The notes under the pieces are model-generated. The model searched no databases, was not told the DNA's origin, and was given only the letters and a program-made list of their open reading frames with translations. DNA of 11,049 bases, from assembly GCF_019052655.1 (NCBI RefSeq), contig NZ_JAHQVB010000065.1, forward strand, positions 1-11,049, read 5' to 3'. This DNA comes from Holdemanella porci (GTDB taxonomy: Bacteria > Bacillota_I > Bacilli_A > Erysipelotrichales > Erysipelotrichaceae). This document shows, in pieces, positions 1 to 11,049 of this stretch. Each line of letters starts with the position of its first letter. The stretch's first letter is position 1. Position numbers and translations under genes: made by a program.

Positions 1-23
1 AATCCTTTTAATCATTAAAAACA

Positions 24-85
24 AATCTAGGGGTCTATAGGTTCATGCCGATATGACATCAGTCCCCTAAATTGACCCCTAGATT
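24..85. repeat. 12-bp perfect inverted repeat enclosing a 38-bp loop; terminator-like or element end
   Basis: AATCTAGGGGTC at 24-35 is the exact reverse complement of GACCCCTAGATT at 74-85. Read on the minus strand, the right arm of the stem is followed by TTTGTTTTT, so it could act as a long-looped terminator for transcripts leaving the kdp cluster. It is GC-richer than its surroundings, and a gene fragment begins directly beside it on the plus strand, so it could equally be the remnant end of an insertion element or a short MITE-like insertion. I do not recognise the repeat as a named insertion-sequence terminus. Confidence 0.6.
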
Positions 86-213
86 ATTTGGTTACCCAAG
101 CTATCATTGAGGCCGTACCTGATGAAAATGATAGCATGATGATTGGGTTAGGTGATTTCAATTTTCCGCAAGAAGAGATTGAGGAAATAAAAAATGAAAT
201 AACAATCATTTGA
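76..213 (+). pseudogene. C-terminal remnant of an unrecognised protein
   Basis: An open frame runs from just after a TGA at 73-75 to a TGA at 211-213, giving about 45 codons. The composition looks like a genuine protein tail: it is acidic and soluble, with stretches such as EAVPDENDSMMIGLGDF and PQEEIEEIKNEI. No plausible start with a ribosome binding site is visible, and the frame begins inside the right arm of the inverted repeat at 24-85. I infer that the gene lost its 5' part when something inserted or recombined there. It converges on the sensor gene that ends at 224, leaving only 10 bp between them. I do not recognise the family. A small internal ATG start is possible but would give only about 26 residues. 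Confidence 0.4.
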
Positions 214-223
214 GTGTTTATTA

Positions 224-2134
224 TTATCTTTCTAAAGAATCCATTGCTAGAGAAACTTCATTTAAAATTGTTTTAATTAAACTTTTTTCATATTGACTTA
301 ACGCTTTGTTGCTAATCATATCTATTCCTATAACACCATATATTTTATCATTTCGCCGAATAGATAAATACAAAGCCTTTGCTTCTTGCAATGTGCTAGT
401 GGTTGGACCCGCATTTTTATTGTTTATATAAACCCATTTTGCCACTGTTCTTTCTTTTTCTGTCAAAAATATATTGCTATCATCCAAAAGTTTATTCGGA
501 TTATAAATATATGGTTTATCTAACATTTTTCTATTTACAGGATAAAAAATAATAATTCGTTTTAACCATTTATTTAATTGAACACATGTTTCTTTCATAA
601 CATCATTGTAAGTTTTTGCTTGTTGTAGTTTTTGGCTTGTTTCTAACAAAACCTCCATGCTATAAGCACGTAAAGATGCGCTATTTTTTTCCTTCTTTAA
701 TTTAAAATTTAAAACATTTATAATAAAGGAAACGACAATCATTACAATTAATACCATAACATATTCTGATGAAATCATTTCCAAAGAATATTTTGGATTA
801 ATAAATAAATAATTTATTAAACATACATTTATAAACGGTATTATAAAACTATAAATAGGAAGTAATGTTAAACTACCTATAATACATGATGATAATACAT
901 ATAATAATATAATCGTAGTAATATCAAATCCCGCAATTTGTGCGAAATATGCTAAGATGGTTATAATCAATAATATACTTATTGAAATAGAGCTATCCCG
1001 AGTAGAAAAGCGAAAAAAATTTTGATATTGATATTTTACACTGTTTAGATTTTGATTGCTCGAATTGTTATCTGGAATAATATATATATCTAAATTAGGA
1101 GATAATTTTGTTAATTTATCTACTATCGTTGGTTTATTAAAAATTGATTTTTTTTGATATGAACGTCCTAAAACTAATTTAGATACTCCTGCTGTTTTAG
1201 CATACTGACTAATTTGATAGGCTATATCATCACCAGATGTAGATACAATGTTTGCTTGTAACTCCTTTGCAAGAGAAATGTTTTTTTTGAGTTGTTGGAA
1301 AGCTTTTAAATCTAATTCTTGTGAATCAGAATTTTCAACGTACAAAGCTGTAAACTCTCCATGAAATGCTTGAGCCATTTTAGAAGCGGTTCGAATTACT
1401 TTTTGATTCGTTGGTGATGTTCCTAAACAAACCAATATTTTTTCTTTAAGAAATTGCTTATTTTCATCTTTTGCATATAAATTTATACGATCAGCGCATT
1501 TCCTTAATGAAATTTCTCGTAATGCTATTAAATTATCTTTTATAAAAAAATTCTCTAACGCCCTTTTTGCTTGTGTCTTACTATAAATTTTACCCTGTTT
1601 TAACCTTTCTATTAAATCATTTATATCAACATCTATTAGCTTAACATCATCTGCATCATTAAATATATAATCAGGAATCCTCTCATTTACCTTTACTTTT
1701 GTAATACTTTCTACAACATCGTGTAAACTTTCTATGTGTTGTACATTTACCGTAGTATAAACATCTATACCTGCTCGCAATAATTCTTCAATATCACTAT
1801 ATCTTTTTTTATGTCTAGAAGTAGGCGCATTTGTATGAGCTAATTCATCAACTAGTATTAGTTGAGGGTGTCTATCTAATGCTTTATCTAAATCGAACTC
1901 AGAAAAATGATGCCCCTTATAAAGTACCTCTTTAGTCGGTATTTTTTCTAATCCATATGTTAGGTTCTGTGTATCTGGTCTATCATGACTTTCTATATAT
2001 CCAATTACTACATCTACACCTTCAACAGATTTTTGCTGAGCTGTATTTAACATAGAAAAGGTTTTTCCAACTCCTGCACAATATCCAAAAAAAATTGTTA
2101 ATTTTCCATTTTTCGCCTCTTCCAATACTAACAT
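224..2134 (-). CDS. kdpD: KdpD-like sensor without kinase domain (P-loop KdpD domain, USP, four TM, GAF)
   Basis: This protein matches the sensory two thirds of KdpD, the potassium and turgor sensor. Residues about 10-215 are the KdpD N-terminal domain, with Walker A GYCAGVGKT at 17-25 and a Walker B-like LILVDELAHTN at 92-102. A universal-stress-protein domain spans about 230-355, a hydrophobic four-helix DUF4118-type membrane block about 383-475, and a GAF domain about 495-632. It ends directly after the GAF helix (MDSLER), where HisKA would start in full-length KdpD, so it cannot autophosphorylate. It lies 13 bp after the kinase-bearing paralog and is last in the operon. I infer a modulator or heteromeric partner of that kinase. 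The AAGGAG ribosome binding site touches the ATG with no spacer; a TTG at 2123-2125, nine bases from it, may be the real start. Domain assignment is firm; the role is inferred. Confidence 0.9.
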   Translation of the reverse strand: MLVLEEAKNGKLTIFFGYCAGVGKTFSMLNTAQQKSVEGVDVVIGYIESHDRPDTQNLTYGLEKIPTKEVLYKGHHFSEFDLDKALDRHPQLILVDELAHTNAPTSRHKKRYSDIEELLRAGIDVYTTVNVQHIESLHDVVESITKVKVNERIPDYIFNDADDVKLIDVDINDLIERLKQGKIYSKTQAKRALENFFIKDNLIALREISLRKCADRINLYAKDENKQFLKEKILVCLGTSPTNQKVIRTASKMAQAFHGEFTALYVENSDSQELDLKAFQQLKKNISLAKELQANIVSTSGDDIAYQISQYAKTAGVSKLVLGRSYQKKSIFNKPTIVDKLTKLSPNLDIYIIPDNNSSNQNLNSVKYQYQNFFRFSTRDSSISISILLIITILAYFAQIAGFDITTIILLYVLSSCIIGSLTLLPIYSFIIPFINVCLINYLFINPKYSLEMISSEYVMVLIVMIVVSFIINVLNFKLKKEKNSASLRAYSMEVLLETSQKLQQAKTYNDVMKETCVQLNKWLKRIIIFYPVNRKMLDKPYIYNPNKLLDDSNIFLTEKERTVAKWVYINNKNAGPTTSTLQEAKALYLSIRRNDKIYGVIGIDMISNKALSQYEKSLIKTILNEVSLAMDSLER

Positions 2135-2147
2135 CTCCTTATATTAT

Positions 2148-4109
2148 TTAACAATTAACCATGTTCTTATTTATAGTTATCTTTGTAGCCGGTAAACTAA
2201 ATGTAAAAATAGCCCCTGTTGGTTGATTATCTTTTACAGATATAACACCACCGTGTGCTTCAACAATTGATTTACATAATGACAAACCTAGTCCCATACT
2301 CTTCTTACTATCGACAACAGAATGATTTACAGTATAGAATTTTTCAAAAATTTTATTTTTATCAATATCTTTTATTCCACTTCCATTGTCACACACTTCA
2401 ATGTACACATTATTTTTTATTTGATAAGCGTTTATAGAAATTGTTGATTCATCTTCTGTATATTTTATCGCATTATTAATTAAATTTATTAAGACCTGTA
2501 CAATTAATCTCGCATCCATATCCGCCATTAAAAAATCATCAGAAATATTCACTTTAATTTTACGATTATCTTTGATTCTACTAACATGACTTAATGATTC
2601 ATCAATTACATCTTCTATAACTTCTGGTTCTATTCTTAATTTCACGCTACCATCTTCTATACGAGTTATTGATAATAGATTTTCTACTAAATTGATCAAC
2701 CACAAAGAATCGTCATATATATTTTTGTATAAAGCATTTTTTTTATCATTCTTCAAATTACCATTATCATTTAACAACACATCAGCATTACCATATATCG
2801 AAGTCAACGGCGTTCTGAGATCATGAGATATAGACCTAAGTAAATCAGATCTAAATTGCTCTTTTTTTACTTTTATAATAGCCTCATTCTTTTCTTCATT
2901 ACTTTTTATATTTTCCAAGCACATAGCCATTTCACTTAATATAGCCAATAAAATACGTTTATCAAATGATTCTAAAACATCGTTACCTAAATAAATACCA
3001 ATAACTCCATATATTTTATCATCCGTTAATACAGCATAATAGATACTCTTTGATCCTGATAAATAACGAGTTGTCGCTCCTGCATGCTTTCCATTGATTG
3101 CTACCCATTTTGCAACGCCTATCTCATTAGCATTCAAAAACTCTTTACAACAAGAATTTTCCTTTTTGGGAAACAGAATAGGATTTTGTATAGAAGACTT
3201 CTCAATTGGAAAATACGCAATATCTCTATTAAATAAATTTGATAATTGTTTGCATCCACAATTAAATATATCTTCCACAGATTGTTGTTTTTGCAAAAGC
3301 TGGTTTTTTTCTAATAAAATACGAGAAACATTAGCCATATTAGCATAACTTGCAGCTGTTAATTGAATTTTATTCATTAGTGTACTTATTAAAAAAGCAA
3401 CTATAATCATAATTACAAATGTCATTAAATAAGCTGAATCATAAAAAGATAAACTTAATATAGGCAGTGTAAAATAAAAGTTAAATAAAATAACACTAGC
3501 AATCGATGAAACGACACTGCATATGATATTTGATGTAGTTAAGGCAATCAATAAAACACCAATTAAGTAAATCATAATAATATTAGAATCATGAAATCCC
3601 ATATCAAAAAACACAAAACCAACTACTGTACAGATAAACAATATAAGAATACTAGTAACAATCGATTTTAGTGTCAATTTACTTTTATTGTTTAATCTCT
3701 TGAATATTCTATTTTCTTTTACTGGCACGATAATTAAATTAATGTCTTCAATATTCTCTAATAAATATTGATAAATTGGTTTTTGAAAGAGATGAAATCT
3801 CATATTCATGTTTTTTCCGATGACAAGTTTATTTACTTTATATATATTAGCAAATTTAAAAATTTCACCCGCTATATCCTCAGAAGAAACAATTTCCACC
3901 TCTGCTCCTAATTGTTTTGCACAAGCAATATTTTTATCTAGCTGTTCCTGATTTGAATCACTTAATGTCCTTTTTGTATCAGATATATACAATGCATAAA
4001 AATGGTCTTTTTTATTTCGCAGCATACTACTAGCAACACGAATTACATGGATATTAGATGGTGAAGGAGAAAGACATACCATGATAGAATCAGTATTTTG
4101 GTTACTCAT
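2148..4109 (-). CDS. kdpD: KdpD-like histidine kinase lacking the N-terminal P-loop domain (USP, four TM, GAF, HisKA, HATPase)
   Basis: This membrane sensor kinase should autophosphorylate and pass phosphate to KdpE. Numbering from an ATG at 4127, it has a USP-like domain (about 11-137), four membrane helices (about 153-250), a GAF domain (about 270-405), HisKA with phospho-acceptor H435 in ISHDLRTPLTS, an N-box around N548/N552, DNGSGI at 580-585 and GLGLSL at 612-617. All catalytic boxes are intact. The roughly 220-residue KdpD N-terminal P-loop domain is absent; the protein begins almost at the USP strand. I chose the ATG at 4107-4109 (653 aa) because GAGG lies nine bases upstream, whereas the ATG at 4127 sits on top of that site. 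This start overlaps the kdpE stop by 8 bp, implying translational coupling. The GAF domain closely parallels that of the next gene (both contain DKIYGVIGI), so the two are paralogs. Confidence 0.92.
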   Translation of the reverse strand: MSNQNTDSIMVCLSPSPSNIHVIRVASSMLRNKKDHFYALYISDTKRTLSDSNQEQLDKNIACAKQLGAEVEIVSSEDIAGEIFKFANIYKVNKLVIGKNMNMRFHLFQKPIYQYLLENIEDINLIIVPVKENRIFKRLNNKSKLTLKSIVTSILILFICTVVGFVFFDMGFHDSNIIMIYLIGVLLIALTTSNIICSVVSSIASVILFNFYFTLPILSLSFYDSAYLMTFVIMIIVAFLISTLMNKIQLTAASYANMANVSRILLEKNQLLQKQQSVEDIFNCGCKQLSNLFNRDIAYFPIEKSSIQNPILFPKKENSCCKEFLNANEIGVAKWVAINGKHAGATTRYLSGSKSIYYAVLTDDKIYGVIGIYLGNDVLESFDKRILLAILSEMAMCLENIKSNEEKNEAIIKVKKEQFRSDLLRSISHDLRTPLTSIYGNADVLLNDNGNLKNDKKNALYKNIYDDSLWLINLVENLLSITRIEDGSVKLRIEPEVIEDVIDESLSHVSRIKDNRKIKVNISDDFLMADMDARLIVQVLINLINNAIKYTEDESTISINAYQIKNNVYIEVCDNGSGIKDIDKNKIFEKFYTVNHSVVDSKKSMGLGLSLCKSIVEAHGGVISVKDNQPTGAIFTFSLPATKITINKNMVNC

Positions 4110-4839
4110 TATTTTTATCCTCAACATCAGAATTATCTATTTTTATCATTTTATAACCTACCCCAACATGTGTTTGTATGTATTTTTCATTTGATATTTT
4201 CTCTATTTTTTTTCTTAAAGAAGTTACATAAACTCTTAATGAAGATAAATCAGATTCAATAGAGTTAACCCATACTTTATCTAATATATACTGATGTGTT
4301 AATACTCTTCCTATATTTTTAGATAATAAGCACAATAGATTGTATTCAATAGGCATTAAATGAATTTCTTTATCATCTACATATACAGATTGAGCAATAT
4401 AATCTATTTTTAAATGTCCATTCACAAAATAATTATCATTATTTAATGTATTTTCTTTGTACTGAATTCTTCTCAAAGTTGAGCGAATTCGAGCTAACAA
4501 TTCTTCTACACTAAATGGTTTAGTTATATAGTCATCCGCTCCAATATCTAAGGCTGTAATTTTGTCATCATCGTTGCTTCTGGCACTAATTACAATAATT
4601 GGAGTAAATGAAAATGTACGTAATTTTTTTATGATATCTATTCCATCTAAATCTGGCAAACCTAAATCAAGCAAAATAATATCAAATTGATGTTTAACTA
4701 GTAATGACAACGCCATACTACCATTCGTAGCCATTTCGAAATTATAACCATTTGTTTCTAATGCAGTTGATATTAAATTTCGTATAGCGGACTCATCTTC
4801 AACTATTAATACATTCATTAAATTATTCACAGTGTTCAT
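4102..4839 (-). CDS. kdpE: KdpE, OmpR-family response regulator of the kdp operon
   Basis: This is a DNA-binding response regulator that, once phosphorylated, should activate the Kdp transport operon. The receiver domain occupies about residues 8-122, with acidic pair E14/D15, phospho-acceptor D58 in LLDLGLPDLDG, S85 in IIVISAR and K107 in TKPFS. A winged-helix OmpR-type domain spans about 135-235 and ends with the typical VGVGYKM. Length (245 aa) is normal. It precedes the two sensor genes, the reverse of the common kdpD-kdpE order, and overlaps the start of the kinase gene by 8 bp. The start is ambiguous: GGAG directly abuts the ATG at 4837-4839 with no spacer, while a GTG three codons later (4828-4830) sits nine bases from it and may be the true start. 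A consensus extended -10 promoter lies just upstream. The call is secure. Confidence 0.95.
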   Translation of the reverse strand: MNTVNNLMNVLIVEDESAIRNLISTALETNGYNFEMATNGSMALSLLVKHQFDIILLDLGLPDLDGIDIIKKLRTFSFTPIIVISARSNDDDKITALDIGADDYITKPFSVEELLARIRSTLRRIQYKENTLNNDNYFVNGHLKIDYIAQSVYVDDKEIHLMPIEYNLLCLLSKNIGRVLTHQYILDKVWVNSIESDLSSLRVYVTSLRKKIEKISNEKYIQTHVGVGYKMIKIDNSDVEDKNNE

Positions 4840-4863
4840 CTCCGTTCGTGTAAATTTCTATAT

Positions 4864-4872
4864 ATTATAACA
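4864..4872 (-). promoter_or_regulatory. Extended -10 promoter for kdpE and the two sensor genes
   Basis: On the minus strand the bases read TGTTATAAT: a perfect TATAAT (plus 4864-4869) with the TGn extension. It lies 24 bp upstream of the kdpE ATG, so the leader would be only about 20-27 nt. No good -35 box is visible at 17 bp, which is tolerable for extended -10 promoters. This would let the regulatory genes be transcribed at a basal level independently of kdpFABC. Inferred from sequence only. Confidence 0.6.
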
Positions 4873-4967
4873 TTTCTAAAAAATCAAATAAAGAATTATT
4901 TAGACTATCATTTGTATAGCAATAAGATACTATTTTTGCTTTATTAGTAATTATAGAAAAATCGATT

Positions 4968-5591
4968 TTAACTTTGTTTGATTTCTCTTATTAAAGATAG
5001 ATTTAATTGCAACACATTAACTTTTTCTTCGCCAAAGATACCAAGTAATTTATTTTCAATATTATCCTTTATTAATTTTTTCAATACCTCCTTAGAAATA
5101 TGCGTATTTTTTGACACTCTATCAATTTGAACATTAGCAGCATCAACAGAAATATGTGGATCTAATCCTGATCCAGATGCAGTTATTATATCTGCAGGAA
5201 TATCTTCTCTTTTTATCGTAGGATTTTCTTGTAGAAATTTTTCAATATCATCATTAATTCTTTTTTCTAATTTAGGATTACTTGATGCTAAATTTTCACT
5301 TCCAGATGATGGTAAAACTTGTCCTTTGCTTTCTTTTTCGTTTTGTGTGAAAGTATTATAATTTACAGCAGAAGGTCTACAATGAAACAATCTCTCATCC
5401 GTAAAATCTTGTCCAACCAGTTCAGAACCTATAACTTTTCCGTCAATTTCAATTAGACTTCCATTTGCTTGATGTGGGAAGATAGCTTGAGATAACCCTG
5501 TCATTAACATAGGATAAATCAATCCACAAATTACGAACATTACTAATGATAATTTAAATGGTGTTTTTAATTTATTAAATAAACATTTCAT
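4968..5591 (-). CDS. kdpC: KdpC, accessory subunit of the K+-transporting KdpFABC ATPase
   Basis: KdpC is the single-span subunit that assembles with KdpA and KdpB and helps nucleotide binding. The protein has one N-terminal membrane helix (about residues 12-35, LSLVMFVICGLIYPMLMTGL) and an extracytoplasmic domain with the family signature SGSGLDPHISVDAANVQI, preceded by RPSAVNYN. Length is about 207 aa, slightly above the E. coli protein (190). I chose the ATG at 5589-5591 because TAGGAGG lies six bases upstream; the ATG at 5597 abuts that ribosome binding site with no spacer. The TAG stop of kdpB is part of the same TAGGAGG, so translation is probably coupled. It is the last gene of the transport unit; no convincing terminator follows before the kdpE promoter. 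Confidence 0.96.
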   Translation of the reverse strand: MKCLFNKLKTPFKLSLVMFVICGLIYPMLMTGLSQAIFPHQANGSLIEIDGKVIGSELVGQDFTDERLFHCRPSAVNYNTFTQNEKESKGQVLPSSGSENLASSNPKLEKRINDDIEKFLQENPTIKREDIPADIITASGSGLDPHISVDAANVQIDRVSKNTHISKEVLKKLIKDNIENKLLGIFGEEKVNVLQLNLSLIREIKQS

Positions 5592-5601
5592 AAACATCCT
5601 C

Positions 5602-7659
5602 CTATAATCCTAAAAAAACCAGTAATGGTGAAATGAGAATATCAATTAATTTAATACCAATAAATGGACAAATTACGCCTCCTAAACCATAAATCATCAT
5701 GTTTCTTCCCAATAGTTTAGATGCACTCATAGGTTTATATTTGACACCTTTCATAGCTAACGGTATTAGGAAGGGAATAATAATCGCATTAAAGATTAAT
5801 GCCGATAAAATTGCACTTGATGGAGAGCTAAGTCCCATAATATTTAAGACGTTCATTTGTGGAATTGCAATTGTAAAAATTGCTGGAATAATTGCAAAAT
5901 ATTTTGCAATATCATTTGCTATAGAAAATGTAGTTAACGATCCTCTTGTAATTAATAATTGCTTACCAATTTCTACTACCTCTAATATTTTCGTTGGATC
6001 CGAATCTAAATCTACCATGTTAGCTGCTTCTTTGGCAGCAGTAGTTCCGCTATTCATTGCTATTCCTACATTAGCTTGGGCTAAGGCTGGTGCATCATTT
6101 GTTCCATCACCAGTCATAGCTACAATTTTCCCTAATGATTGTTCTTTTTTTATTGCTTCTATTTTATCTTCGGGTTTACATTCAGCAATATAGCCATCAA
6201 CACCAGCTTCAGCAGCAATAGTTGCAGCTGTTAAAGGATTATCCCCTGTGCACATAATCGTTTTAATACCAATCTTACGTAAACGATCAAATCTTTCTGT
6301 CAATCCTGGTTTTACTGTATCTTTTAAATAAATAACACCTAAAATCTTGTCATTAGCGCAAACTACCAACGGAGTTCCTCCTAATTTTGAAATATTTTCC
6401 ACTTTTTCATTTAAATCAGAAGGAATTAATCCATTTAAATTTTTTACATAATTAATAATGGCTTCACCAGAGCCTTTTCTTATTTTAGTACCATCTTCAA
6501 GATCAATCCCACTCATTTTGCTACTAGCTGTAAATTCAATGAATGTTGCATTCTTGTAATCATCAATATTTAATGTAACTCCCATCTTTTTAGCTAATTC
6601 TACTGTTGATTTCCCTTCAGGTGTCGTATCTTTTAACGATGCAATACATGCATATTTCACAAGATCCGTTTCATCTACACCGTCAACATTAATAAAATCA
6701 CTCGCCAATCTATTTCCGAATGTAATAGTACCTGTTTTATCTAAAATCATTGTATCAACATCACCACATGCTTCTACTGCCTTTCCAGATAGTGCAATAA
6801 CATTAAATCTAGTAACACGATCCATACCTGCAATACCAATTGCACTAAGTAATGCCCCAATTGTGGTTGGGATTAAGCATACTGTTAATGCTACTAACGT
6901 TGAAATTGGAATTTTAACATTTAGGTATGTAGCGAGAGGATATAATGTGACGATTACTATTAAAAATATAATAGTTAAAGATACTAACAAAGTATTCAAG
7001 GCAATTTCATTTGGAGTTTTCTTTCTAGAAGCGCCTTCGACCATAGAAATCATTTTATCCAAGAACGAATGACCTGGATCTGTTGATATTTCAATTTTAA
7101 TCCAATCAGAAACAACAGTAGTACCCCCGGTAACTGAAGCAAAATCTCCTCCTGCTTCTTTTGTGACAGGAGCTGATTCACCAGTTATCGCCGATTCATC
7201 AACACTAGCAATACCATCTATAATTTCACCATCACTAGGAATTAATTCACCAGTTTTAACAAGTACAATATCACCTTTTTTTAGTTCACTACTAGATACT
7301 TCCTTTTCAGATCCATCATCTAAAATCAAACGTGCTTTCGTATCTTTTTTTGTCTTTTTTAAAGTATCTGCTTGTGCTTTGCCACGTCCTTCAGCAACGG
7401 ACTCAGCAAAATTTGCAAACAATAATGTGACAAACAAAATAATTGCAACTATTGCATTATATAGGCTTAAATTACTTCCTTCATCATGAAACAAATGAGG
7501 AAAAAAAACTAATATTGTACATAAAATAAATCCAACTTCAACAACAAACATAACCGGATTTTTTATCATATATTTTGGAGATAACTTTGTAAAAGCACCT
7601 TTAATTGAAGAATAGAAGATATCTTTCGTAATAAATTGCTTCTTTTCTTTTTTACTCAT
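5602..7659 (-). CDS. kdpB: KdpB, catalytic P-type ATPase subunit of KdpFABC
   Basis: KdpB hydrolyses ATP to drive K+ uptake through KdpA. All P-type signatures are present: TGES at 159-162, the phosphorylation motif DKTGT with D307, KGSGEA at 395-400, TGDN at 471-474, GDGTND at 517-522, and NDIAKYF with D583 and K586 in a membrane helix. Numbering at these sites coincides with the E. coli protein as I know it. S162, equivalent to the residue whose phosphorylation inhibits E. coli KdpB, is conserved. The 685-aa length is normal and no lesion is visible. The start has GGAGG seven bases upstream. The TAG stop of kdpA lies inside that ribosome binding site (TATAGGAGG), and the same arrangement recurs at the kdpB-kdpC junction. 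Certain assignment. Confidence 0.99.
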
Positions 7660-7670
7660 TTTTATTCCTC

Positions 7671-9413
7671 CTATAATGTCAACATCTCTGCAACTGGTCC
7701 TAATGCAATTGCAGGTAAAAATGTTAGGGCTGCAAAAATATAAACAACAATTACTAATATAATTGCAAATGTTAGAGTATTAGTTTTTAAAGTTCCTGTA
7801 GATTCGTTAATATCTATTTTATTCATCAAACTACCAGCAATACCTAGTTGAATGATTATTGGCAAATATCGAGCTAAAAACATGACTATACCACAACTCA
7901 TATTCCAAAATAATGAATTATCTAATAAACCTTCAAAACCTGAACCATTATTAGCTGCTGATGAAGCAAACTCATATAAAACCTGCGATAAACCATGAAA
8001 ACTAGGATTCGTAATACCGTTAACACCTTCTGGAATAGATACAGCTAAAGCACTAAAACCTAAAATCAATAATGGATGAATAATAATACATAAAGCTGCA
8101 AGTTTCATTTCTTTTCCTTCAATTTTTTTACCAAGATATTCGGGTGTTCTACCAATCATCAAGCCACAAATAAACACGGCAATAATGGCATAGATTAACA
8201 TATTCATAAGCCCAACACCAGCTCCACCAAAAACAACATTCAACATCATATGCATTAATGGAACTAATCCACCTAATGGCGTTAATGTATCATGCATGTT
8301 ATTGACGGATCCAGTTGTAAAAGATGTTGTCGCAGTAGTAAATAATGCGGATTGTGCAACACCAAATCTTACTTCTTTTCCTTCCATATTACCAAAAGTT
8401 TCTGTGATACCTGCTTGTGCTACTGCATGGTTTCCTAGCGATTCACTCCAAAAACAAACTCCTAAACCAATAACAAATAATATTGACATAGCAACGAAAA
8501 TTGTTCTTCCTTCCTTGCCAATCCACACTTTGTTTGCTCTATTGCAATTTTTAGTTGACAAAGTATAAACTCTGTTATTTGCTTTTGATTCTTCATGCTT
8601 ATCATATGCCATTCTACCAAAAACAAAAATACAAGAAACCGGCAAAATCATCATTGAAAATAATTCGATAATATTTGTAATAATTGTTGGATTTTCTAAA
8701 GGTGTAGCTGAATTGGCACCTAAAAATCCCCCACCATTTGTTCCTAAATGTTTAATAGATTCTAATGCTGCTATAGGACCAGATGCAATTTCTTGAATTT
8801 TTCCTTCTATTGTTGTTAATTCAATATTTGAATTCAAATTTTGTGGAACACCTTGCCATACAAGAAATAATCCAATAATCATTGATAAAGGTAATAAAAA
8901 TCGGTTAATGATTCGGATAAAATCAACATAGAAATTACCCATTTTTTTACCTAACAAACCTCTAATCATAGCAATACATGCAGAAAAACCCGTTGCAGCA
9001 GAAGTAAACATCATCATAATAATCACAAGCATTTGAGATAAATATGATAATCCAGATTCTCCAGCATAATGTTGTAAATTCGTATTTGTCATAAAAGATA
9101 TAATGGTATTAAAAGACAATGATTCTTCCATACCACTAATACCATTAGGATTTAAAAATCCAATTGATTGAATTCTTAAAATCAAATACCCAATGAAAAC
9201 TAGGCATAAATTGACCATCAACAATGACATAGCATATTTTTTCCAAGTCATCGTTGATGTATCTATTTTTAGTATCCTAAACACAAAATTATCCATTTTA
9301 TCAAATACTGGATCTGCAAATGTTCTCTTACCAACAGACACATGGTAAACATAATTTCCAATCGGAAAGATGATAACCATAAACAATAATAATGTACAAA
9401 CTATCTGTACCAT
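7671..9413 (-). CDS. kdpA: KdpA, K+-binding and translocating subunit of KdpFABC
   Basis: KdpA is the channel-like membrane subunit that selects potassium. The 580-aa protein has about ten hydrophobic helices and the four pseudo-repeated filter loops: [14 protein letters not shown] (about 106-119), [19 protein letters not shown] (224-242), [14 protein letters not shown] (about 362-375) and [10 protein letters not shown] (487-496). These match the family in order and spacing, so the transporter should be functional. It is slightly longer than E. coli KdpA (557). The ATG has GGAGGG seven to eight bases upstream and begins 14 bp after the TPR gene. It is immediately followed by kdpB in the conserved order. 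Confidence 0.99.
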
Positions 9414-9427
9414 AAATGACCCTCCAT

Positions 9428-9823
9428 TTACATAAATTTATTTTTTTCAGCGACATGTGCGATATGTCTACTATCATATTTAATCTCATATTTTTGCTCG
9501 CTTTTAGAACAGTCTGACTCTTCATAAAAAAATTTATGCATCGTTTCAAAACTACTAAAATTAGACATATTTTCTCGAGCAGGTAAATAAGTTGGATCTA
9601 AACACCACGCCGCTCTAAAATGTTTCATTGCTAGAATATGATTACGTTTTTTTTCATATATAATCCCTAATAAATTATGAGGTATAGCAGAATTTGGATG
9701 TTTTGACATAAAATTGCAAATAATTTGAATAGCTTCTTGTAATTTACCAGAACAAATAAGCTTTTTCATTTCTAAACAAAAGTATTTTTCATTTTCCTCA
9801 TCGCCGTTGAGTATAGTATTCAT
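9428..9823 (-). CDS. Small TPR-repeat protein in the kdp operon, function unknown
   Basis: This 131-residue soluble protein has no signal peptide or membrane helix. Residues about 48-81 form a good tetratricopeptide repeat (pattern N-LLG-Y, then A at the turn, F--A and LDPTY). Residues about 15-47 look like a preceding degenerate repeat (LICSGKLQEAIQIICNFM then KHPNSA). The C-terminal 45 residues are polar and charged, with no motif I recognise. It starts 27 bp after kdpF, with GAGGAAGG before the ATG, and stops 14 bp before kdpA, so it is almost certainly co-transcribed with the pump. TPR pairs normally bind peptides or proteins. I infer an assembly or regulatory factor for the Kdp complex or its sensors. 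It is not one of the standard Kdp subunits. Confidence 0.85.
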   Translation of the reverse strand: MNTILNGDEENEKYFCLEMKKLICSGKLQEAIQIICNFMSKHPNSAIPHNLLGIIYEKKRNHILAMKHFRAAWCLDPTYLPARENMSNFSSFETMHKFFYEESDCSKSEQKYEIKYDSRHIAHVAEKNKFM

Positions 9824-9850
9824 ATTACCTTCCTCTTTCTATAATATAAG

Positions 9851-9928
9851 TTAAAATTTATCTGGGTTTACCAAAGCATACAAAAGATAACAAGAAAGTA
9901 ATATAATAATTACTATCATAATAAACAT
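9851..9928 (-). CDS. kdpF: KdpF, small stabilising subunit of KdpFABC
   Basis: This 25-codon frame encodes a single hydrophobic helix (MFIMIVIIILLSC) ending in YLLYALVNPDKF. The tail matches the KdpF family signature (E. coli ends YLVYALINAEAF). KdpF is the lipid-like small subunit that stabilises the KdpABC complex in the membrane. It sits in the expected place upstream of kdpA, although a TPR gene intervenes. The start follows AGAGGTGATGATAA, a moderate ribosome binding site, 12 bp after the preceding small gene. Short genes like this are often missed by gene finders. Confidence 0.87.
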   Translation of the reverse strand: MFIMIVIIILLSCYLLYALVNPDKF

Positions 9929-9940
9929 TTATCATCACCT

Positions 9941-10033
9941 CTATCTTTTTAATTCTTTATCAATCCAATTTACAAACCCTGTCATAAGAAAAAACGAAAT
10001 AACTAAAATAGATAACATGATTACATCAATCAT
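9941..10033 (-). CDS. 30-aa single-pass membrane peptide at the head of the kdp operon
   Basis: An ATG at 10031-10033 with a near-perfect GAGGAGG site six bases upstream opens a 30-codon frame. The peptide has one hydrophobic helix (about residues 3-20, with ILVISFFLMTGF) followed by a charged cytoplasmic-type tail, VNWIDKELKR. This shape resembles the small hydrophobic peptides encoded ahead of kdpA in some Gram-positive kdp operons, such as the kdpZ/kdpY genes reported in Clostridium acetobutylicum. I recall that comparison rather than having computed it. It is 12 bp from kdpF. It could be a second small subunit of the pump or a membrane-bound regulator. The strong ribosome binding site and position make it very likely to be translated. 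Confidence 0.75.
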   Translation of the reverse strand: MIDVIMLSILVISFFLMTGFVNWIDKELKR

Positions 10034-10082
10034 AAATTTCCTCCTCACCATTAAATTCACAATCTCTTTATCCTTAGGACAG

Positions 10083-10137
10083 AAGTATTTTAATACTTTC
10101 AGAATTAAAATAGGTTTAAAAAAAAGAACTTAAAATT
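10083..10137 (-). promoter_or_regulatory. Candidate kdp promoter/operator region: 16-bp palindrome plus T-rich block
   Basis: AAGTATT-TT-AATACTT (10083-10098) is a perfect 7-bp inverted repeat about 50 bp upstream of the first small gene. On the minus strand a weak -35 (TTAAAC, plus 10114-10119) and -10 (TATTAA, plus 10090-10095) are separated by 18 bp, and the -10 lies inside the palindrome. Upstream is a T-rich block reading TTCTTTTTTTTAAACC, which resembles the T-rich KdpE target ahead of E. coli kdpFABC. A poor core promoter next to such a block fits an activator-dependent promoter. All assignments here are inference from pattern. Confidence 0.35.
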
Positions 10138-10158
10138 AAAATTAAATTAAAATTAAAT
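10130..10158. repeat. AT-only tandem repeat upstream of the kdp promoter
   Basis: The stretch is made of repeated AAATTAA/AAAATTA units and contains no G or C. It lies directly upstream of the T-rich candidate KdpE site. It may be an intrinsically curved or UP-element-like sequence, or simply low-complexity drift at the boundary between the kdp leader and the mobile-element remnant. Confidence 0.6.
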
Positions 10159-10206
10159 ACTAGCTTAACGCTATACTATACAAACTATACTTTTGTAGCA
10201 AGCACA

Positions 10207-10226
10207 GTAAGTGTGTACCCACTTAC
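10207..10226 (+). other. oriT-like inverted repeat (candidate nic region)
   Basis: GTAAGTG-TGTACC-CACTTAC is a perfect 7-bp inverted repeat with a 6-bp spacer. It resembles the nic regions of MOB-P/Q type plasmids (TAAGTGCGCCCT in RSF1010 and the related pIP501/pC221 group). It lies about 110 bp upstream of a mobC fragment on the same strand, the usual position of an oriT relative to its relaxosome gene. Three CTATAC repeats (10171, 10176, 10185) lie just before it. The resemblance to the nic consensus is from memory and partial. Confidence 0.5.
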
Positions 10227-10237
10227 CGAAAATTGAT

Positions 10238-10271
10238 GAAGCAGCCCCTTATGGAACTGCTTCTTTTTTTA
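10238..10271 (+). terminator. Rho-independent terminator
   Basis: GAAGCAG (10238-10244) pairs perfectly with CTGCTTC (10257-10263), and seven T residues follow on the plus strand. No complete gene remains upstream on that strand; its promoter region or gene may have been lost, or this may be a leader attenuator ahead of mobC. The minus-strand side lacks a T run, so it acts on plus-strand transcripts only. Confidence 0.8.
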
Positions 10272-10334
10272 GCAATTTTAACTTGTTAGGGAGAACTCTA
10301 AGGCCCCATTTTTTAGACAAAGGAAGTGATTGTC

Positions 10335-10463
10335 GTGACACATAGAATTAGAAATGTTCAGCTCAAAATTAATTTAACTGAAGAAGAAAAAGCATTATTT
10401 CAAAAGAAAATGAAGATGGCTAATTGTAAGACCATGAACCATTTTATAATACCATTCGCTTAA
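10335..10463 (+). pseudogene. mobC: Truncated mobC (relaxosome accessory protein) fragment
   Basis: A GTG start with GGAAG eight to nine bases upstream opens a frame whose first 39 residues fit the MobC family of small mobilization proteins: HRIRNVQLKINLTEEEKALF, then MANCKTMNHFI. MobC proteins normally run to well over 100 residues and continue with an Arg-Lys-Cys-type segment after HFI. Here the frame instead continues IPFA and stops, 42 codons in all. The break coincides with the first copy of a TTTTATAATA repeat found twice more downstream, suggesting a recombination or insertion junction. MobC assists the relaxase at oriT during conjugative mobilization; no relaxase follows in the window. 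The family match is from recognition, not a search. Confidence 0.7.
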
Positions 10464-10612
10464 TTTTCTGTAGTTTTTATGAAAACAATACCTTTTATAA
10501 TACCAATCAAACGAATTTAGAGCAATTTATAAAGAATATAGCAACTTTTTTAATGTCAACCGTCTATTTTTCGGCGTCTTTTTTTGAAAACAGCGACTTT
10601 TATAATAACAAT
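10442..10612. repeat. Imperfect direct repeats sharing TTTTATAATAMCA
   Basis: A 34-bp unit at 10474-10507 recurs at 10579-10612 with 28 of 34 bases identical; both contain TGAAAACA and end in TTTTATAATA(C/A)CAAT. A shorter copy, TTTTATAATACCATTCG, at 10442-10458 lies at the point where mobC is broken. Starts of the TTTTATAATA core are at 10442, 10493 and 10598, i.e. 51 and 105 bp apart. They could be iterons, recombination sites, or copies from local duplication. Confidence 0.65.
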
Positions 10613-10705
10613 ATGTTATATTTTACTGCGTTTAACCTCAATAACACATAATTCCTATATTCAAAACACATGTATAGCGTATTTTTCACTTATATTTTGA
10701 AAGAC

Positions 10706-10792
10706 ACATTAAAAAAGGTGTCATTTAAAATCAAACGTTAAAAGTTCAATGATATCAGTAACCCATCAACATTAAAAAGGGCGTCATATTAA
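10706..10792. repeat. Second pair of imperfect direct repeats
   Basis: ACATTAAAAAAGGTGTCATT at 10706-10725 recurs in altered form, ACATTAAAAAGGGCGTCATA, at 10769-10788, and both continue into a TTAA. The first copy also forms a short hairpin, GACAC with GTGTC. The spacing is 63 bp. No function can be read from sequence. Confidence 0.5.
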
Positions 10793-10847
10793 CTATGTGG
10801 TGGTAAATTAGTTGCTATATTTTCTTCATGAATTTAATAACAAAAAT

Positions 10848-10883
10848 GAGCAACCCCCGTTATCAGAGAGTTGCTCTTTTATT
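10848..10883. terminator. Bidirectional intrinsic terminator
   Basis: GAGCAAC (10848-10854) pairs perfectly with GTTGCTC (10870-10876). TTTTATTA follows on the plus strand, and on the minus strand the stem is followed by ATTTTTGTTATT. It lies about 110 bp beyond the stop of the minus-strand gene that enters from the right edge, so it probably ends that transcript. Confidence 0.7.
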
Positions 10884-10933
10884 AAATCTATATACTACGC
10901 TTTACTATTTGTAGTTATCTTTCCATTTTAAAT

Positions 10934-10955
10934 TGGCGTAAGTGTGGCGTAAATG
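10934..10955. repeat. 11-bp tandem direct repeat TGGCGTAARTG x2
   Basis: TGGCGTAAGTG is followed without a gap by TGGCGTAAATG, with 10 of 11 bases identical. It lies between the terminator at 10848 and the stop of the partial gene at 10994. Short tandem repeats of this kind often serve as arm-type binding sites for tyrosine recombinases at the ends of integrative elements, but no integrase gene is visible here. Confidence 0.55.
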
Positions 10956-10993
10956 TGTAAATTTACAACCAAAAATTACTAATTTTTTTAATT

Positions 10994-11049
10994 CTAGTAA
11001 AGCTTAGCTCCTGCAGGAATCTTGTCATCAACCATCAATAAGTTTAGTC
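10994..11049 (-). CDS. Partial gene, last 17 codons of an unrecognised protein
   Basis: The minus-strand frame entering from the right edge ends at a TAG (10994-10996) and reads LNLLMVDDKIPAGAKLY. Too little remains for family recognition. The terminator beyond it supports a real gene, but the other frames are also short here, so confidence is limited. Confidence 0.35.
   Translation of the reverse strand, partial: LNLLMVDDKIPAGAKLY

Follow-up and report, generated by a model that had tools for sequence, protein, structure and literature searches.

A KdpD divided into two chains beside a kdp operon of Holdemanella porci: probable separation of a pump off-switch from a gene on-switch

The KdpD sensor of a kdp potassium pump operon was analysed in an 11,049-nucleotide stretch of Holdemanella porci DNA (assembly GCF_019052655.1, contig NZ_JAHQVB010000065.1, positions 1 to 11,049), the whole of which is referred to here as the window. 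The minus strand of the window carries a kdpFABC operon and kdpE, with KdpD present as two proteins: D, which has the KdpD P-loop domain and no histidine kinase, and K, which has the histidine kinase and no P-loop domain. At the level of sequence, the two kinase domains are found on separate chains beside kdpABC and kdpE. To judge from sequence, it is probable that this two-chain KdpD consists of an off-switch for the pump (D) and an on-switch for the genes (K), that the two were drawn from different KdpD lineages and that the sensory inputs have been sorted between them.

D (224-2134; all window features given here are on the minus strand) is a chain of 636 aa in which the open reading frame (ORF), Pfam and custom hidden Markov models (HMMs) identify the KdpD P-loop domain, a USP domain, four transmembrane (TM) segments and a GAF domain. 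Its true start is likely to be the TTG at 2125, a position consistent with the AAGGAG at 2140-2135 and with the N-termini of relatives; a Holdemanella porci protein matches D at 635 of 636 residues, the sole difference lying upstream of this TTG, and the D protein of the window is listed on 320 contigs. The N-terminal P-loop domain (PF02702, 309 bits; 1484-2110) is a predicted atypical serine kinase and has both motifs of the KdpD serine kinase, the Walker A sequence GYCAGVGKT (G-X5-GKT; 2060-2086), aligned to E. coli G30-T38, and a Walker B Asp-Glu (1844-1849), aligned to E. coli D109/E110. From the adenine pair of E. coli, W39/R190, the Arg is kept in D, and position 39 is F in the window and Y in most rows of the motif census given below. 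The USP domain (1067-1450) reads GTS ... FTALY, and is followed by a diverged four-TM region (DUF4118; 677-988), located by Pfam, the custom HMM and the structural model, and by the GAF domain (227-655), at the end of which the ORF stops, before any HisKA. Pfam detected PF02702 and DUF4118, placed Usp below its curated cut-off and called no GAF; domain HMMs for USP, TM and GAF built from 23 full-length KdpDs found all three (USP 172 bits, GAF 153 bits). The predicted single-chain structure of D (mean pLDDT 80.3) matched the solved KdpD N-domain 2r8r with a root mean square deviation of 1.5 Å at 49% identity, and also the KdpD USP 7ji4 and the GAF 4qpr. D scored below the cut-offs of both full-length KdpD NF007793 (463.9, cut-off 1123) and the shorter NF038185 (339.6, cut-off 550). 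Its GAF core residues did not vary across 30 aligned rows made up of D, full-length KdpDs and a small number of other KdpDs that lack the kinase.

K (2148-4109) has 653 aa from the ATG at 4109, or 659 aa if opened at 4127, and is a histidine kinase of the order USP-TM-GAF-HisKA-HATPase. The USP domain (3717-4097) is eroding, with SPS and Tyr kept, and precedes the four-TM region (DUF4118; 3345-3656), the GAF domain (2901-3323) and the HisKA plus HATPase_c region (2166-2879; PF00512 55.9 bits, PF02518 91.9 bits). The phosphoacceptor His, residue 429 of the 653-aa form (2823-2825), was invariant in a 28-row alignment and, with HATPase_c, identifies K as a KdpDE-type histidine kinase. Pfam called DUF4118, HisKA and HATPase_c and neither GAF nor Usp, both of which were found by the custom HMMs (USP 103 bits, GAF 140 bits), as was the TM region; with full-length KdpD NF007793 K scored 316.3, below the cut-off of 1123. 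Over a shared part of 411 aa D and K have 32% identity (E 2e-57 as a single comparison), far beyond chance. A preliminary description of the window had assigned USP, four TM and GAF to both adjacent genes, the P-loop domain to the downstream gene only and HisKA/HATPase to the upstream gene only, all of which these searches bear out. It had also described the genes as overlapping; D and K are in fact 13 nt apart, or 22 nt if D opens at TTG 2125, and the 8-nt overlap is that of kdpE with K (4102-4109).

The same split recurs in relatives within a group of gut bacteria. Loci are denoted by L and genomes by G. Within the order of the C. spiroforme-like genome G001, PF02702 in an open frame of 635-660 aa was found in 9 of 294 genomes (6 of 43 in the family of G001; 3 of 272 in that of G107). 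In the class to which Romboutsia belongs (391 genomes), frames of comparable length were present in G003, G710 and G674, and a longer one in G731; G710 groups with the window in trees and the D of G674 is 92% identical to that of G710, while G003 and G731 are placed elsewhere. The window-type split is found in 12 genomes including the window; its presence in the 11 others means that faulty sequencing of this contig is not its source. The D ORFs of the relatives are intact and 58-67% identical to that of the window; D lies on the strand opposite to the kinase gene in 11 of the 12 genomes, and only in the window does it stand at the end of the operon. The partner has the form USP-TM-GAF-kinase in the window, L001, L002, L112, L119, L120 and L087, is a 629-aa chain with no recognised USP in L088 and a 525-aa TM-GAF-kinase chain in L089, and retains a residual P-loop domain in L084 and L085 (844 aa) and L086 (814 aa). 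The persistence of this degenerate domain upholds the earlier proposal that opposite ends were lost from full-length KdpDs.

Other split forms were encountered. Romboutsia has chains of 660 and 528 aa, and short P-loop plus USP proteins of 381-391 aa are present in L115, L116 and L124. L117 and L118 have a P-loop, USP and GAF chain without TM (569/563 aa) adjoining a TM-GAF-kinase chain (493 aa), probably another independent split. Kinase-less KdpDs were also placed for Romboutsia (L003) and for L117/L121: in two trees, from one of which further long-branched or near-duplicate rows were left out, they group with other full-length KdpDs, and in a third L118 groups with L117. They were rejected as window-type, since they appear to have arisen separately. 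Two full-length KdpDs, one of them beside the pump and one away from it, occur in a single genome (L095 and L096; G132), a possible starting state for splits, and kdpD-like genes apparently broken into two frames were seen in L098, L099 and L094 (G153, G054 and G047).

The state of the P-loop motifs differs between the two chains. G-X5-GKT, Asp-Glu and R190 are kept by D in 12 of 12 window-type genomes; in the K-type chains with a residual P-loop domain the Walker residues are lost in all three rows, which represent two lineages (Walker A GYAMHTGKT and Walker B DH in L084/L085; GCNDTVMES and DN in L086). A census was made of 59 kinase-bearing KdpD rows (60 less L143, the 5' end of which is missing); its list does not contain the contig-cut L101 or the re-fetches L113 and L114, and the broken L094, L098 and L099 and the short L126 are non-kinase pieces. 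Intact motifs were seen in 42 of the 44 rows that had kdpA in the genome but no D, in 4 of the 12 for which no kdpA was found (lost in 8) and in none of the three with D present; among KdpDs lacking a D partner, 8 of the 10 rows with lost motifs were without kdpA. Fisher values of p 1.3e-5 (pump against no pump) and 6e-4 (pump without D against with D; 0.006 if two events are counted) come from related rows, with near-copies kept and assemblies that may be incomplete, and are not formal tests. Retention of the motif where the pump is present is what would be predicted if the P-loop domain acts on KdpB, and the TGES motif was found in the KdpB of the window and in 51 of the 52 KdpBs of the pump tree described below.

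In 13 pump-less kinase loci (the 12 of the census and the broken L094), a TrkH-type and/or TrkA_N-type (Ktr-like) gene, so called from the Pfam matches of the pair in L114, was present in the fetched stretch of eight and absent from that of five, of which L091 starts at a contig end. The motifs were lost or missing in five of the eight (L092, L093, L094, L103 and L149) and intact in L081, L131 (KtrA-like gene alone) and L147. Elsewhere a strong TrkH/TrkA_N pair was found in L130 only, and a weak TrkH of 38 bits in L070, L086 and L099. In pump-less genomes KdpDE seems to have been re-used for another K+ transporter, often without the serine kinase. Chains of P-loop, USP and weak GAF (515-517 aa) with intact Walker motifs were also noted in L122, L123 and L125, from genomes of 0.9-1.1 Mb with no kdpA found.

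The N-terminal domain of E. coli KdpD is a serine kinase that phosphorylates Ser162 of KdpB, within TGES, and inhibits the pump; phosphorylation needs Walker A, D109, E110 and W39/R190, and not the DHp/CA part of KdpD (PMC11018627). By analogy D would be a membrane-anchored serine kinase that phosphorylates the TGES of KdpB at high K+ and stops the pump, and K, from its domains and position, would be the histidine kinase through which low K+ activates KdpE and transcription of kdp. D would belong with this pump lineage, its histidine kinase having been lost; K would go back to another lineage's full-length KdpD and would have lost its serine kinase either because D supplied the activity or already before recruitment. 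Since the pairing the inputs would have been sorted, with USP conserved alongside the serine kinase and TM alongside the histidine kinase. A further proposal, that a bifunctional kinase is coming apart again as two KdpDs of different ancestry within one cell erode reciprocally, one ending as nothing but the off-switch of the pump and the other as nothing but the on-switch of the genes, with USP going to the serine kinase and TM/GAF to the histidine kinase, is put forward tentatively and at somewhat less than even chances.

Domain conservation in the two chains is complementary: D guards the P-loop and USP domains while its TM region drifts, and K guards the kinase, and nearly so the TM region, while its USP erodes. 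Mean pairwise identities were 76% (P-loop), 71% (USP), 46% (TM) and 53% (GAF) in nine D rows, and 38% (USP), 54% (TM), 49% (GAF) and 60.5% (kinase) in six K rows (window, L112, L001, L119, L086 and L084; not L089, L087 or L088), compared with 72, 64, 58, 53 and 61.5% for P-loop, USP, TM, GAF and kinase in nine chosen full-length KdpDs. The TM region is the least conserved part of D, 28% identical to the nine full-length KdpDs, and USP is missing altogether from the partner in L089. The earlier suggestion of two ligand-sensing sets feeding one kinase fits poorly with an eroding USP in K and a diverged TM region in D.

D could instead be a regulatory subunit that joins K in a mixed complex and acts on it through the P-loop, USP and GAF domains, with serine phosphorylation, if any, being secondary. 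D has kept TM and GAF, with the GAF core residues invariant, and the N-terminal domain of E. coli KdpD reportedly complements the C-terminal domain, according to the title of a paper from 2000. We regard this as improbable, as the P-loop motifs are mostly lost where the pump is absent and the histidine kinase retained, the orphan kinases beside Trk/Ktr-type genes included, and as TM is the least conserved part of D. The preliminary description had similarly made D a kinase-less regulatory partner, which overlooks that an N-domain of this type is a serine kinase acting on KdpB in E. coli (PMC11018627).

D and K fell into separate clades in phylogenetic analysis. L002, L085 and L120, with Ds 99, 100 and 92% identical to those of L001, L084 and L119, were left out of the trees, and the long-branched L100 and L127 were left out of the kinase and N-domain trees. 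In a USP-TM-GAF tree of 81 rows the nine D rows formed one clade (support 100/100) and seven K rows another (100/98). In this tree K and its sister group, which consisted of the full-length L070_F893 and three orphan kinases without a pump, were united at 100/96; D was not a neighbour. Forcing the nine D and seven K rows into one clade cost 39.8 log units, with p 0.0035 in the approximately unbiased (AU) test. A data set of 50 rows and 632 columns that also included the N-domain gave p 0.013 for the same clade and p 0.030 for its extension to L070 and the orphans. The two data sets that reject the joint clade overlap, and the clades were named after the first tree had been seen; owing to this post-hoc naming and the long D stem the AU p-values are only guides. 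The identity of K to L070 and to D was 50 and 29% in TM and 48 and 38% in GAF, and hardly different in USP (38 and 35%). In a quick KdpB tree (LG+G4, 52 rows; fourteen loci left out as near-duplicates, re-fetches, a contig-cut locus or second loci of a genome) the nine D-type pumps lay in one half, in a set with L065 (99), and the L070 pump lay in the other half, across branches with values of 100. Comparison of this tree with those of the kinase chains indicates that the pump and D on one side and K on the other appear to have different histories, and we infer that the pair arose by recruitment. We also considered co-drift of the two chains and gene conversion between their genes and rejected both: in six pairs the D-K identity within a genome was about that between genomes for each of USP, TM and GAF.

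The origin first proposed for the pair, in which one kdpD of this lineage was duplicated in tandem and the copies then lost opposite parts, would explain the shared USP-TM-GAF part with its 32% identity and the adjacency of D and K in the window. The KdpDN plus USP data alone reject neither D with L084_G844 (p 0.073) nor D with L070 and L099 (p 0.12), and kinship of the L087/L088 partners with D is likewise not rejected (p 0.40). Such a duplication is nevertheless decidedly unlikely in view of the separate clades and the AU results for both groupings, the greater similarity of K to L070 than to D in TM and GAF, the pump tree and the inverted position of D relative to the kinase gene in all of the 12 genomes but one. 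That one kdpD was simply broken by fission or a frameshift, or that the assembly is at fault, can be dismissed as very improbable, for although apparently broken kdpDs exist in relatives (L094, L098 and L099), D and K each carry their own USP-TM-GAF and the pair recurs in 12 genomes with D inverted in 11 and with intact, diverged D ORFs in the relatives.

Several observations, with the unrejected placements just given, weigh against an off-switch and an on-switch recruited from two lineages. The placement of D rests partly on a long branch (stem 0.93). In the kinase-domain tree the seven K rows were neither resolved as one clade nor rejected as such (p 0.26). The L087/L088 partners group apart from K in the N-domain-added data (p 0.0076), but by kinase domain a union of these partners with K is not rejected (p 0.076). 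The first value suggested that kinase partners had been exchanged serially between these two loci and the rest; in view of the second value and that for D kinship, this is not claimed. The orphan kinases near K, which have neither D nor pump, have also lost the P-loop motifs, and they stand with L070 in the USP-TM-GAF tree (99/88) and as the sister of K to the exclusion of L070 in a second tree (96/86; 30 of 52 full-length rows used). This loss in the absence of D, with the two placements, suggests that the P-loop loss of K may predate D. The motif census has its exceptions, L100 (EN) and L135 (GKS, a conservative change) being altered despite a pump and L081, L131, L146 and L147 intact with no kdpA found; L146 has kdpB in its locus and L131 is on a 4.6-kb contig. 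The P-loop of E. coli KdpD also affects histidine kinase/phosphatase output (PMC11018627), which suggests that D may act on K too. Finally, the first Ser of the cyclic di-AMP (c-di-AMP) motif SXS-X20-FTAXY is Gly in 11 of 12 Ds, as in 5 of 52 full-length rows, and is kept in 8 of 8 K rows; K of the window reads SPS..FYALY, a partial match. In the USP of S. aureus KdpD this Ser is essential for c-di-AMP binding, which is lost in S244A (PMC4686210 and PMC8214093). Control of D by c-di-AMP was rejected on the ground that D reads GTS..FTALY. All 14 of the genomes tested for diadenylate cyclase (PF02457), 11 of them with D and 3 with orphan kinases, encode it, and neither a c-di-AMP riboswitch nor another known RNA was matched in Rfam at gathering thresholds in the window, L001 or L003.

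The transcription order on the minus strand is a 30-aa ORF, kdpF, a TPR-like gene, kdpA, kdpB, kdpC, kdpE, K and D. The 30-aa hydrophobic ORF (9941-10033) has no Pfam match. kdpF (9851-9928; 25 aa) is shorter than the length limit of the ORF list and was recognised by PF09604 (24.3 bits, cut-off 21.2). kdpA (7671-9413) and kdpC (4968-5597) were assigned from profile matches, kdpB (5602-7659) carries the TGES motif with the Ser that is the serine kinase target in E. coli, and kdpE (4102-4839) encodes the response regulator. The small TPR-like protein (9428-9823) is of a type that accompanies a number of kdp operons: 17 of the 87 loci inspected (some genomes twice) have it, with KdpB in the locus every time; these include the window, L001, L003, L070, L084, L086, L087, L088, L090, L099, L119, L139 and L146. 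A second DUF4118 histidine kinase with no recognised GAF was noted near the kdp loci of L070, L084, L086, L087 and L099; it forms one clade in the kinase tree and has its own KdpE-like regulator in some loci.

These data amount to genetic evidence from nature that selection acts on the N-terminal domain of KdpD by way of the pump: the domain is usually retained alongside KdpB, dead in chains with a D partner and often dead where the pump is gone. They also offer a system in which the two KdpD outputs could be assayed apart with no engineering, and suggest that a fused KdpD can come apart again, opposite in direction to the fusion put forward in print. Reciprocal erosion, if true, would bear on the question raised in PMC11018627 of whether the two activities answer different signals. 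Split serine/histidine chains as a kind are already in print (PMC11018627), the only description of them in the open-access literature searched; the same literature yielded no account of the dual-sensor split, its intermediates, a recruited secondary origin or an association of P-loop loss with loss of the pump or presence of a second copy.

The closest known systems are the split pairs of PMC11018627, which likewise have the two kinases on separate chains in species with a Kdp pump. Those pairs consist of a KdpD/Usp chain and a TM/GAF/DHpCA chain, whereas in the window USP, TM and GAF are present in both; separate chains are read there as preceding fusion, whereas here they apparently come from fused KdpDs, with a fossil P-loop in relatives; and KdpDs without a histidine kinase are placed there mostly in species without KdpE, which is present here. 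The sorted conservation of D and K nonetheless resembles the commonest printed split (P-loop/USP with TM/GAF/kinase), seemingly reached from fused ancestors. Compared with full-length KdpD of the E. coli type, all domains are present but in two genes of apparently different ancestry, each missing one kinase. Like the short KdpDs (the NF038185 sensor and D. geothermalis KdpD), D has P-loop and USP and no histidine kinase; it differs in adding TM and GAF, in falling below the NF038185 cut-off and in lacking the first Ser of the c-di-AMP motif. K resembles the KdpDE histidine kinases in having DUF4118, GAF, HisKA and HATPase beside kdpE, and differs from them in the absence of a P-loop domain and in its eroding USP.

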